Source of the DNA: Allochromatium tepidum
GTDB taxonomy: Bacteria > Pseudomonadota > Gammaproteobacteria > Chromatiales > Chromatiaceae
Length of the DNA: 64,000 nt
Direction: 5' to 3'
Assembly (NCBI RefSeq): GCF_018409545.1
Contig: NZ_AP024563.1
Coordinates: 3,030,001-3,094,000, forward strand
Part shown: one piece after another, positions 1 to 16,139 of the stretch
How the letters are laid out: the number at the start of each line of letters is the position of its first letter
Position numbering within the stretch: position 1 is the first letter of the stretch
The notes under the pieces: generated by a model
The model's database searches: none
Told to the model about the DNA's origin: nothing
Seen by the model: only the letters and a program-made list of their open reading frames with translations
Program-made: the position numbers and the translations under genes

Positions 1-1540
1 CCCCAGGTGCGACCTGGATGCCGATCGGCTTGAGCACCGCCTGGAGGTAGCCGGCCGGATCGAGCAATTGTCCAGCGGTCGCCTCGGCCAGATCCAGCAC
101 CGGACCCGAGCCGATCAGCAACGCCAGACAGAGCGCGAGCAGTCCCAGGGTCGGCCGTGAGGCACTGAGCAGACCTTCCGCCGGCGGCGGATGGGTGGGT
201 TCGCCCGAACCGGCGCCCCGGATATGGAGGAACAGCAGACTGCCCGAGCGCGCCAGGGCGACGATGCCCAGCAGACTGCCGATCAGAACCACGCCCAGCA
301 TCCAGGGCCAGACCGGTTCATCGAGCGCCGCGCGCAGAACGAGAAACTTGCCGACGAAGCCTGAGAGCGGCGGCAGTCCCGCGACCAGCATGGCCGTGAC
401 GAAGAACAACCCGCCGAGCAGAGCGGCATTCGGCAGCGCCGGTCCGGGTGCCAGCCGATCGGCGGCCCAGCCGCGCTCGCGCGTGATGAGATCGGCCAGC
501 AGGAAGAAGGCCGCCGTCGCGAAGGTGGTGTGGACCAGATAATAGAGTCCGGCCGCGATTCCATCCGCCGTCCCGAGTCCGAATGCCGCCAGCAGCAACC
601 CGACCGAGACCACGACCAGATAGGCGACCTGCCGGCGCAGTTCGTTCGCCGCCAGCGCGCCCAGTGCTCCAAGCGCCAGGGTCAGCAGACCCAGCGGCAG
701 CAGCCAGGCGGCATAGAATCCGGTCAGGATTCCGGCGTGCTCGCCGAACATCAGGGTCTCGACGCGAAGCAGTGAATAGGCACCGACCTTGGTCATGATG
801 GCGAACAGCGCCGCCACCGGCGCCGAGGTCGAGGCATAGGCCGAAGGCAGCCACAGATGCAGCGGCGCCAGCGCGGCCTTGAGCGCGAACACCGCCAGCA
901 GCAACAGCGCCGCCACCCGTGCCGGTCCCAGATCCTCGGGCGGCAGTCGGGCGATCTTCAGCGACAGATCGGCCAGATTGAGCGTACCGACCAGGCCATA
1001 GAGGGCACCGGCCGCGAACAGGAACAGCGTCGAGCCGACCAGATTGATGACGACGAAATGCAGTCCGGCCCGCACCCGCGCCGCCCCGCCGCCATGCACC
1101 AGCAGGCCGTAGGAGGCCAGCAGCAGGATCTCGAAGAAGACGAACAGGTTGAACAGATCCCCGGTCAGGAAGGCGCCGTTGAGACCGAACAACTGGAGCT
1201 GGAACAGCGGATGGAAATGGCGGCTGCATCTGTCGGTGCCCTGCATGGCGTGCAGCAGGGCGAAGAAGGCCAGCAGCGATGTGACCAGCAGCATCCACAC
1301 CGCCAGCCGGTCGGCCACCAGCACGATGCCCCAGGGCGCGGGCCAGTGGCCGAGATGATAGGTGAGGATGGTGCCGTCCCCGACCAGGATCAGCAGCTCG
1401 ACCGCCAGCAGGATCTGGCCGAGGATCGCGGCCAGATTCAGCCTGCGGCGTGCGGCGAGCGACAGCGTCCGCCGCGACAGCAGCAACAGGGTGCCGACCA
1501 GCAGCGGCAGGAGCAGCGGGGCGATGACGAGATGGTTCAT
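1..1540 (-). CDS. mrpD: Mrp antiporter subunit D (partial, C-terminus off the left edge)
   Basis: Polytopic membrane protein of the NuoN/MrpD family, part of a multisubunit Na+(K+)/H+ antiporter in the inner membrane. The frame is open from ATG at 1540 to base 2, giving about 513 codons with no stop, so the gene runs off the window. It reads MNHLVIAPLLLP at the start and contains the proton-translocating-family segment PLHLWLPSAYAS with many hydrophobic helices. Its ATG overlaps the stop of mrpC (ATGA), which fixes the start and implies translational coupling. Family length is roughly 490-550 residues, so little is missing. mrpE/F/G would be expected beyond the edge. Family assignment is secure; ion specificity cannot be read from sequence. 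Confidence 0.9.
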   Translation of the reverse strand, partial: MNHLVIAPLLLPLLVGTLLLLSRRTLSLAARRRLNLAAILGQILLAVELLILVGDGTILTYHLGHWPAPWGIVLVADRLAVWMLLVTSLLAFFALLHAMQGTDRCSRHFHPLFQLQLFGLNGAFLTGDLFNLFVFFEILLLASYGLLVHGGGAARVRAGLHFVVINLVGSTLFLFAAGALYGLVGTLNLADLSLKIARLPPEDLGPARVAALLLLAVFALKAALAPLHLWLPSAYASTSAPVAALFAIMTKVGAYSLLRVETLMFGEHAGILTGFYAAWLLPLGLLTLALGALGALAANELRRQVAYLVVVSVGLLLAAFGLGTADGIAAGLYYLVHTTFATAAFFLLADLITRERGWAADRLAPGPALPNAALLGGLFFVTAMLVAGLPPLSGFVGKFLVLRAALDEPVWPWMLGVVLIGSLLGIVALARSGSLLFLHIRGAGSGEPTHPPPAEGLLSASRPTLGLLALCLALLIGSGPVLDLAEATAGQLLDPAGYLQAVLKPIGIQVAPG

Positions 1541-13616: not shown

Positions 13617-13711
13617 CATTCCTGTACCAGAGAGGGATGGGTGGCTAAAGTGTCGCCCAATCCGGCGGTCGACGCCAAGTGCGCGCGTGCTCCGGGGCGC
13701 GAGGTCGGGCG

Positions 13712-14410
13712 ATGAAGCCTGCTGTCGTCCTGTTGAGCGGCGGTCTGGATTCAACCACGGCGCTCGCCATCGCCCGCGCCCAAGGCTTCGCCCCCTATGC
13801 GCTGTCCTTCCGCTATGGTCAGCGTCATGCCGTCGAGCTGGAAGCGGCCGCGCGCGTGGCCGAATCCCAGGGCGTGGTCGAGCATGTGATCGCCGAGATC
13901 GATCTGCGCCGCTTCGGCGGCTCGGCCCTGACGGCGGATCTCGCCGTACCCAAGGGGCGCGATCCGGGCGCGATGGATTCCGACATCCCCGTGACCTATG
14001 TACCTGCGCGCAATACGGTTTTCCTGTCGTTCGCGCTCGCCTGGGCCGAGGTGCTGGAGGCGGGCGACATCTTCATCGGGGTCAATGCGCTCGACTATTC
14101 CGGCTATCCGGACTGCCGACCCGAGTACATCGCCGCCTTCGAGACGCTGGCCAATCTGGCCACGGCCGCCGGTGTCGAGGGACGTCAGCATTATCGTATC
14201 CATGCCCCATTGATCGAGATGAGCAAGGCCGAGATCATCCGCGCCGGGCTGGCGCTCGGGGTCGACTATGGTCTGACCGGCAGTTGCTATGACCCCGGCC
14301 CCGATGGTCGACCCTGTGGGGCCTGCGATTCCTGCCGACTGCGTGCCAAGGGCTTCGCCGAGGCCGGGGTCGCCGATCCGCTCCTGGCCCGTTTCGAGGT
14401 GGGTGCATGA
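13712..14410 (+). CDS. queC: 7-cyano-7-deazaguanine synthase QueC
   Basis: A 232-residue ATP-dependent enzyme converting 7-carboxy-7-deazaguanine and ammonia to preQ0 in queuosine synthesis. The PP-loop SGGLDSTT is at residues 9-16, the substrate-region motif [10 protein letters not shown] is near 105, and the C-terminal zinc site uses Cys192, Cys202, Cys205 and Cys208. ATG at 13712 begins the fold directly. Its stop overlaps the start of the queD-like gene (ATGA), so queC, queD and queE form one coupled operon. Cytoplasmic. Confidence 0.96.
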
Positions 14411-15501
14411 ATACGCGCCTCTTTCATCTCGCCGCCGTCCCCTTCGAGGCCGCGTGTCGGATCGACATCCTGCCCGAGGGACATCGCTGCCGGCGTCTGC
14501 ATGGTCATAGCTTCCTGGCGCGGGTGCGCGCCGAGCCGCCGTCGGGCTGGGCCGGCTTTCCGGGCGCGGAGAGCGACGACCTCCAGGCCGCGCTCGCGCG
14601 CTGTGTCGAGCCGCTCGACTATCGCGATCTCAACACCATCCTGCCGATCCCGACCGACGAGAACCTGGCGCGCTGGGTGCGCGACCGGCTCGACGTGCCC
14701 GGCCTCGCCTCCGTCGGCATCCAGAGCACGCGCGATCAGGGCGCGGATCTCGACGGCGCCGATCACGCCCATCTCTGGCACCGCTTCCGGTTCGAGTCGG
14801 CGCATCGGCTACCGAACGTGCCCGAGGGCCATCCCTGCGGGCGGATGCACGGCCACGGCTTCGAGGTCATCCTCCATGCCGATCAGGATCTCGACGGCGA
14901 AGACATGGGCATCGATCTCGACCGGCTCGCCGCGCTCTGGGCGCCGCTGCATGAGGAGCTGCATCAGGTCTGTCTCAACGACATCCCCGGCCTGGAGAAT
15001 CCGACCAGCGAGCGGCTGGCGAGCTGGATCTGGGCACGGCTCAAACCCGAACTGCCGGCGCTGTCCTGGGTCACGGTCTACGAGACCGCGACCGCCGGCT
15101 GTCACTTCGACGGCACCCATTATCGGATCTGGAAGGAGCAGCGCTTCGAGGCCGCGCTGCGTCTGGAGCAGGCGCCCGAGGGCGACGCACGGCGGCGTCT
15201 GCACGGACACAGCTATCTGTTGCGACTGCATCTGACCGCGCCGCTGGATCAGGTGCTCGGCTGGACGGTCGACTATGGCGACGTCAAGCGCCTGTTCAAA
15301 CCGCTCTACGACCGGCTCGACCATCACCGGCTCGATGCGCTCGACGGGCTGGAGGCCGCTGATCCGGGGAGTCTGACCCGCTGGATTCGCGAGCGCATCC
15401 GCGACGATCTGCCGGAACTCGACCGGATCGATCTGCAACCGACGCCCGGCTGCGGCGCTTCGCTGTGCTGGGGCGAGTTGGGTCCGGCACTGCCGACATG
15501 A
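14407..15501 (+). CDS. queD: Triple-domain 6-carboxytetrahydropterin synthase (QueD) fusion
   Basis: A 364-residue protein made of three consecutive QueD/PTPS domains (about 1-122, 123-243, 244-364), three times the usual size of about 120. QueD makes 6-carboxytetrahydropterin from dihydroneopterin triphosphate. Domain 2 keeps the zinc histidines (133, 148, 150), the catalytic Cys144 and Glu226, but has LHQV in place of LDHH. Domain 3 keeps the Asp-His pair (Asp305-His306) and HGH (266-268), but Leu251 replaces a zinc histidine and Ala261 the catalytic cysteine. Domain 1 has Cys17 for the zinc histidine, keeps Cys28 and HGH, and has lost Asp-His. Four-base overlaps with queC and queE fix both ends. 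Confidence 0.93.
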
Positions 15502-16139
15502 GCTACTGGGTCAAGGAAAGTTTCTACAGCCTGCAAGGGGAGGGCGCTCAGACCGGGCGCGCGGCTGTGTTCTGCCGCTTCGCCGGCTGCAACCTCTGGT
15601 CGGGCCGCGAGCAGGACCGCGACCGGGCCATCTGCCGCTTCTGCGACACCGACTTTCGCGGCACGGACGGAGAAGGCGGCGGACGCTATGCAAGCGCCGA
15701 CGCGCTGGCCGAACACCTCCACGCCCTCTGGTCGGTCGAAGCGGACGCAAGCGGACGCCCCTATGTCGTCTGCACCGGCGGCGAGCCGCTGCTGCAACTC
15801 GACGCGCCCCTGATCGACGCCCTGCACAGGCGCGGCTTCGAGGTCGCGGTCGAGACCAACGGCACCCGCCCGGCGCCGCCCGGTCTCGATTGGATCTGCG
15901 TCAGTCCCAAGGCGGGCACGACCACGGTATTGATGCTGGGTGACGAGCTCAAGCTGATCTACCCCCAGCCCGGACTGGAACCCGAGCACTTCACGGGCCT
16001 GGGTTTCCGCCATTTCTTCCTGCAACCCATGGACGGCCCGCACCGCGTCGCCAACACCCGTCTGGCCGTCGACTACTGCAAGGCTCATCCGCGCTGGCGC
16101 CTGAGTCTCCAGACACACAAATGGCTCGGGATTCACTGA
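15498..16139 (+). CDS. queE: 7-carboxy-7-deazaguanine synthase QueE
   Basis: A 213-residue radical SAM enzyme that rearranges 6-carboxytetrahydropterin to 7-carboxy-7-deazaguanine, between QueD and QueC in the pathway. The cluster motif is the longer Gram-negative form CX14CX2C (Cys31, Cys46, Cys49) instead of CX3CX2C. The SAM-binding segment TGGEPLLQ lies near residues 95-102, followed by [21 protein letters not shown] at the start is typical. The ATG overlaps the queD stop. Last gene of the operon; a strong puc promoter begins 35 bases later. Confidence 0.96.
   Translation: MSYWVKESFYSLQGEGAQTGRAAVFCRFAGCNLWSGREQDRDRAICRFCDTDFRGTDGEGGGRYASADALAEHLHALWSVEADASGRPYVVCTGGEPLLQLDAPLIDALHRRGFEVAVETNGTRPAPPGLDWICVSPKAGTTTVLMLGDELKLIYPQPGLEPEHFTGLGFRHFFLQPMDGPHRVANTRLAVDYCKAHPRWRLSLQTHKWLGIH

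Follow-up and report, generated by a model that had tools for sequence, protein, structure and literature searches.

PTPS/QueD enzymes are normally assembled from six identical copies, and a gene that joins three QueD domains in one chain raises the question of whether such a protein can be a working 6-carboxytetrahydropterin synthase and, if so, which of its domains supply the active site. A gene of this kind lies in a 64,000-nucleotide stretch of Allochromatium tepidum DNA (the window, to which the positions in Table 1 refer), in a host genome of 3.38 Mb on 2 contigs. An initial reading of the letters alone, hereafter the sequence-only reading, had placed three tandem QueD/PTPS domains at the queD position of a queC-queD-queE operon, and the profile searches agree: the Pfam PTPS profile matches the 364-aa protein in three stretches (188 bits against a cut-off of 22.4), as does the NCBIfam QueD equivalog model TIGR03367, which places the whole protein above its cut-off (148.1 bits against 89.25). 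The gene order queC-queD-queE is the operon setting of QueD / PTPS-I. For queE, the ATG at 15498 is a more likely start than the GTG at 15465 given by the mechanical list of open reading frames. The nearest proteins in named genomes belong to Allochromatium and are 96% and 92% identical.

Table 1. Positions in the window of the three-domain queD gene, its neighbours and the residues discussed in the text.
Feature	Position	Strand	Basis or remark
queC	13679..14410	+	NCBIfam score; stop overlaps queD start (ATGA)
Three-domain QueD, 364 aa	14407..15501, stop included	+	ORF and translation, Pfam and NCBIfam profiles
Domain 1, residues 1-118	14407..14760	+	Degenerate pocket: C17 replaces first zinc His, Cys28 unconserved, HGH kept; D71-Y72
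Domain 2, residues 119-238	14761..15120	+	Complete pocket half; H186-Q187 at Asp-His site
Domain 2 H133, C144 (14836-14838), H148, H150	14803..14856	+	Predicted zinc ligands and catalytic Cys; E. coli H16, C27, H31, H33 by homology
C189 codon, domain 2	14971..14973	+	At E. coli Y73; Cys in 118/118 triples, Tyr in 12/12 single QueDs examined
E202 codon	15010..15012	+	E. coli E86; 118/118
E226 codon	15082..15084	+	E. coli E110; 118/118
Domain 3, residues 239-364	15121..15498	+	Without pocket (L251, R262); W286, D289, D305, H306 retained
W286 ... D289, preceding helix 1 of domain 3	15262..15273	+	E. coli W51, D54; 118/118
D305-H306 Asp-His pair, domain 3	15319..15324	+	118/118
queE, Cx14CxxC type	15498..16139	+	NCBIfam score; likely ATG overlaps queD stop (ATGA)

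Residue equivalences were set by aligning each domain to E. coli QueD. The set expected of a QueD / PTPS-I enzyme, namely three zinc histidines, the cysteine, the glutamate and the Asp-His pair, is present in full in the chain, with a pocket that is complete in domain 2 only and an Asp-His pair that comes from domain 3; where the canonical arrangement has one domain with all catalytic residues, here there are three domains among which the residues are divided. CxxxHGH, given as the QueD / PTPS-I motif in PMC5041015, occurs in domain 2 as C144-GRM-HGH and in domain 1 of this protein as well. The mark of the folate-related PTPS-III, ExxHGH with its Glu three residues before HGH, is absent, the position being held by R29, G145 and R263 in domains 1, 2 and 3. 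For domain 2 the alignment confirms what had been read from the letters, H133, C144, H148, H150 and E226 being retained and LHQV standing at the Asp-His site. The outer domains needed some correction. Domain 3 has indeed lost a zinc histidine (L251) and the cysteine and kept D305-H306, but the residue at the cysteine site is R262, not A261, which aligns with E. coli K26. Domain 1 was said to have lost its Asp-His pair: the histidine is replaced by Tyr72 (in 113/118 homologues), but the aspartate is kept as D71 (106/118). Its Cys28, listed as retained, is present in this protein, but in only 9/118 homologues. The alignment also brought out residues that had gone unremarked, namely W286, D289, the invariant C189 and E202, which we take to be the pterin-anchoring glutamate through homology to rat PTPS E107.

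The division of residues extends well beyond this one protein. The homologue set consists of 118 distinct three-domain proteins including the query, falling into 97 clusters at 90% identity, with identities to the query as low as 39%. Of the 118, 74 derive from 80 loci retrieved by means of six peptide patterns, and one pattern (YDRLDHHR) itself contains the domain 3 Asp-His pair; 43 of the 117 non-query homologues come from pattern-free genome searches, all of them agreeing with the split. H133, C144, H148, H150, E202 and E226 of domain 2 are found in 118/118 sequences, as are W286, D289, H268, D305 and H306 of domain 3. None of the 118 has a complete pocket in domain 1 or 3: the first zinc histidine and the cysteine never occur together in domain 1, and the first zinc histidine never occurs in domain 3. 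Eleven further members, 52-72% identical and read singly, have an identical split. Being common to all 118 homologues, the split is more than chance. Two simpler ideas can be set aside: that a lone protein has decayed by chance, given the agreement of 118/118 homologues, and that domain 1 Cys28 is catalytic, given its presence in 9/118.

A single-QueD reference of 12 proteins, made up of E. coli QueD together with 11 taken from the 42 single-domain matches in the class sample described below, has 45 invariant positions, and these fall largely into two halves. In E. coli numbering, H16, H25, C27, H31, H33, P83, T84, S85, E86 and E110 are present in domain 2 in 119/119 rows; those that persist in domain 3 are W51, D54, D70 and H71, in 119/119, and G50, in 118/119. 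The split is incomplete, since domain 1 still has H25 in 111, E86 in 99 and D70 in 107 of the 119 rows and domain 3 keeps H31 and H33, with E110 in 73/119; positions Y73 and C112 are retained in neither the domain 2 nor the domain 3 half. The same comparison bears on the notion that domain 2 is the enzyme by itself, a canonical site being built from the domain 2 copies of several chains while the other two domains act as scaffold. Domain 2 is the one nearest to single QueDs (52-54% identity to the E. coli and P. aeruginosa proteins), and its Asp-His pair is still there in 27/118 homologues, so that a domain-2-only site is conceivable in those. The pair is, however, missing in 91/118, this protein (HQ) among them, whereas domain 3 has it in 118/118, and the W51 of single QueDs is found in domain 2 in 0/119 rows, which makes this account very unlikely. 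Because each half of the site is complete in one domain only, a single working site per chain would be expected instead of three, and we consider it quite probable that the protein is a working QueD in which three T-folds replace the homotrimer, with one site per chain drawn from domains 2 and 3. Domain 1 had been regarded as free for structure or another task, which is doubtful given the strong conservation of H32 and H34 (117/118 each), Y72 and S107 (114/118); one of the eleven members read singly, L123, is without H32, H34 and Y72.

Whether the protein serves as QueD also depends on what else the genome encodes. A separate canonical queD elsewhere, with this protein inactive, had been named as a finding that would overturn the proposal, and no such gene was found in the host genome: its four PTPS matches are the three within this reading frame and one 174-aa protein (L003), which carries ExxHGH, has no cysteine at the CxxxHGH position and Asp-Glu in place of Asp-His, lies beside two SDR genes and scores 44.1 against the QueD model cut-off of 89.25. 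The idea of a second canonical QueD in this genome was rejected, the Cys-less L003 being the only other match of the search. The genome also carries FolE2, QueC, QueE, QueF, TGT and QueA. With QueF, TGT, QueA and FolE2 present and no other canonical QueD found, the queuosine-pathway genes appear to need the three-domain protein, which, judged from gene content and residues, is very probably the organism's working QueD, that is, its 6-carboxytetrahydropterin synthase. The contrary possibility is an inactive pseudoenzyme or one of changed function, such as a regulator or scaffold for QueE and QueC, with CPH4 supplied by another enzyme. Two of the three sites do look dead, and L003 offers one more PTPS-like protein, but the absent cysteine, the Asp-Glu, the score below the QueD cut-off and the SDR neighbours of L003 all speak against it as a substitute, and the catalytic set of domains 2 and 3 is fully conserved; we regard this possibility as highly improbable.

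Zinc economy was considered as a possible motive for the architecture, one zinc site per chain taking the place of three. The GTP cyclohydrolase IB (FolE2) of this genome lies at G000:C1:516288-517034, and no match to FolE1, the type I GTP cyclohydrolase, was found in the genome. At L138 2864-8168 (G000:C1, about 1785860-1791170) there is a Cys-less ExxHGH PTPS-like gene upstream of two SDR genes; the genes upstream of it presumably encode a zinc ABC transporter and a Fur/Zur-type regulator. A remark in PMC9508795 on a Zur-controlled queD2 may be compared with this locus.

The architecture is widespread. Chromatiaceae had been proposed as the place to look for it, and counts made from reading the match rows place the gene in 60/146 genomes of the family. 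At a threshold of E<=1e-3, this query brought up no canonical single QueD in those 60; what it found in addition was a disrupted second copy in G122 plus weak hits in G102, G139, G071 and G018, of which the one read, that of G102, resembles L003. The second copy in G122 (L126) runs across different frames and is apparently a pseudogene or an assembly fault, and the triple gene of G137 is in two pieces within one open frame. Eight further family genomes have weak single matches only. Elsewhere in the family, genomes carry a CxxxHGH protein that has one domain but is longer (L005-L015) and is possibly their QueD; L005, the one scanned, scores just below the QueD model cut-off (84.2 against 89.25). 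A sample of 369 genomes of the class has the three-domain gene in 19, the host included, and a single-domain match in 42, with no genome carrying both forms at E<=1e-15, some genomes having only 5 candidates scored. In a phylum sample, 14/398 genomes match at E<=1e-45, every one of them three-domain, at a threshold that excludes single-domain genes by design. Named carriers include Thiocystis, Thiocapsa, Thiothrix, Methylolobus, Zeimonas, Magnetococcales MAGs and a Nitrospinaceae MAG. A triple QueD 70% identical to that of the window (L081) sits on a contig labelled as a cyanobacterial MAG and is probably mis-binned. At the 80 loci whose neighbours were recorded, some of them cut by contig ends, queE is adjacent in 71, queC in 60 and both in 53.

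In a wider search for the PTPS family, single-domain PTPS relatives are found alongside the triple gene in many genomes among the matches listed. Seven of the eight such relatives that were read (L130-L136, from seven triple-carrying genomes) lack the catalytic cysteine and show HGA where HGH is expected. The eighth, L137, from the triple-carrying genome G027, is a single-domain PTPS with CxxxxHGH, an Asp-His pair and a Glu near enough to take part, and might be an additional active enzyme of pterin chemistry; the co-occurrence in G027 of the triple gene and a single-domain protein with Cys, HGH and Asp-His is counted against the favoured explanation. In a domain tree of 18 triples and 13 singles, first domains, second domains, third domains and single QueDs each form one group with strong support, for which a triplication that arose once is the simplest reading; the fork uniting second domains with the singles is weak (81/45), and the tree has few columns.

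An AlphaFold2 monomer model from 69 aligned sequences contains three T-folds (mean pLDDT 95.2, pTM 0.91), and its domain 2 superposes on E. coli QueD at 1.2-1.3 Å (Z 12.2). On uricase, domains 1-2 of the full model superpose over 212 residues at 4.4 Å (Z 11.5) and domains 2-3 over, for example, 215 residues at 5.0 Å (Z 10.4), and a separately modelled domain 2-3 fragment (pLDDT 89.3) does so over 214 residues at 3.9 Å (Z 13.0). As both pairs fit the two-domain uricase chain, successive domains are predicted to pack as neighbours, as in a T-fold tunnel, and the earlier picture of the chain as a three-domain pseudo-trimer is upheld by the three modelled T-folds and the superposition of neighbouring pairs. 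QueF was not among the best 50 structure matches of the domain 2-3 fragment, and its matches to the full model, which span 1..363 and 1..364, were left out of account because such ranges give the first and last residue only. Once domain 1 is omitted, confidence at residues 277-296, before helix 1 of domain 3, is 64-75 as against 92-96 in the full model, a loss which suggests that domain 3 closes onto domain 1. Confidence in the pocket loop of domain 2 also falls in the fragment, to 84 from 91-94; with both halves of the supposed site present there, the two falls are mildly against a complete 2-3 site within one chain.

Coevolution was assessed with mean-field couplings (effective 75 sequences; 12 overlapping 60% subsamples). 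Couplings with Z>3 between the pocket of one domain and the helix of the next number 42/2159, against 20/2161 in the other direction, and the total is higher in 12/12 of the overlapping subsamples; for the 2-3 pair alone against 2-1, it is higher in 9/12, equal in 1 and lower in 2. The strongest inter-domain coupling joins V154 of domain 2 to T287 of domain 3. The n to n+1 direction is favoured neither by b2-b3 strand pairs (2.26 against 2.51) nor by pocket-loop to Asp-His-loop pairs (2.34 against 2.45). In a table of pocket by Asp-His couplings, rows 1, 2 and 3 all peak on the diagonal, that is, within the same domain, and Q187 of the domain 2 loop couples most with A261 of the domain 3 pocket loop, which fits a reciprocal facing of domain 2 and the domain 3 of another chain, as well as other readings. 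The couplings agree with a contact between domains 2 and 3, within-chain and between-chain contacts being indistinguishable by this measure.

Which chain supplies the Asp-His pair is judged here from a known structure. In rat PTPS, the site is made by three monomers near the trimer-trimer interface, the trimers being packed head-to-head; Cys42 comes from monomer A, Asp88 and His89 from monomer B, probably in the opposite trimer, and Glu107 is the anchor. On this precedent, D305-H306 of a partner chain is preferred. According to the explanation favoured here, three T-fold domains side by side would replace the canonical homotrimer, and after the triplication each active-site half would have stayed complete in only one domain, domain 2 giving the zinc site, the catalytic cysteine, the pterin-anchoring Glu and E226, and domain 3 the Asp-His pair together with W286/D289. 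In what we judge the likelier arrangement, the chain that gives domain 2 would also bring the W286/D289 edge of its own domain 3, and D305-H306 would belong to domain 3 of a second chain. The two chains would pack head-to-head, domain 2 facing domain 3 of the partner and domain 1 facing its counterpart on the two-fold axis. That W286/D289 and D305-H306 both come from the same chain is a less likely alternative that still carries appreciable weight. Catalysis, zinc binding, ring closure, dimerisation and the chain supplying the Asp-His pair are all matters that we infer from these comparisons.

The sequence-only reading had gone further in the same-chain direction, letting C144 and D305-H306 meet at the 2-3 interface. 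A single pseudo-trimer would then be a complete enzyme, which is a sub-case of the explanation favoured here and one we find doubtful. It is in keeping with the superposition of domains 2-3 on uricase as neighbours, with the enrichment of couplings from each pocket to the next domain's helix and with bimodular V. cholerae QueF, whose site is split between two domains of one chain according to PMC5372742. Against it stand the position of the PTPS histidine, in monomer B near the trimer-trimer interface, and the drop in confidence of the domain 2-3 fragment at parts of the supposed site. Of the original claim of one working site formed by domains 2 and 3, the partition stands, in 118/118 homologues, and the intrachain picture is supported only in part, the PTPS structures favouring a partner chain.

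C189 sits in the domain 2 loop that has given up its Asp-His pair. For QueF, PMC5372742 reports a thiol with a guarding role, and C189 is possibly a thiol of that kind, or else marks a new metal or ligand site. An extension that we put forward as speculative and unlikely is a two-chain pseudo-hexamer with two sites, each made by domain 2 and the other chain's domain 3, in which the four dead interfaces would have been rebuilt for a second task marked by C189: together with the HGH kept in a neighbouring degenerate pocket, this cysteine could act as a redox switch or create another site for a metal or ligand.

Taken on its sequence features, the protein appears to represent a QueD architecture that is widespread and in which the active site is divided among domains, and in the literature on fused, tandem or classified QueD, searched with few subscription papers included, no description of a three-domain QueD was found. 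It may be viewed as a natural experiment in which a symmetric homo-oligomer became asymmetric through triple fusion and then gave up two of its three sites, the loss following both faces of a single interface, leaving each active-site half mutable separately within one gene. It also carries a warning for annotation, since the chain clears the equivalog model like any other QueD, yet no single domain of this protein holds the whole catalytic set. With canonical QueD / PTPS-I (E. coli 4NTK/4NTM, P. aeruginosa 2OBA) it shares the domain fold, CxxxHGH, the catalytic set and the queC/queE neighbourhood; the canonical chain, in contrast, has one domain with all residues, whereas here three domains divide them and at most one site per chain results. 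Among tandem T-folds, uricase has four T-folds per ring and no metal. Its domains are packed like domains 1-2 and 2-3 of the predicted model and its site, as described in PMC7792999, is shared by two protomers, Thr57 and Lys10 being marked as contributions of the other protomer, but it has two domains per chain and an unrelated chemistry. GTP cyclohydrolase IB (FolE2, 3D2O) is a tandem T-fold alike, superposing over 199 residues of domains 1-2 at 5.7 Å, again with two domains and a different reaction. The neighbour packing of this tandem class (uricase, QueF-II, GCYH-IB) is thus seen in the predicted models, with three domains per chain in place of the two that are usual for it. A parallel is V. 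cholerae QueF (3S19), likewise a T-fold enzyme and from the same pathway. According to PMC5372742, its active-site residues were parted by a tandem duplication, so that one chain has the motif in one domain and the Cys/Glu in another; QueF, however, is a nitrile reductase of two domains with no central tunnel, whereas the protein described here has three domains and, by its residues, probably QueD chemistry.
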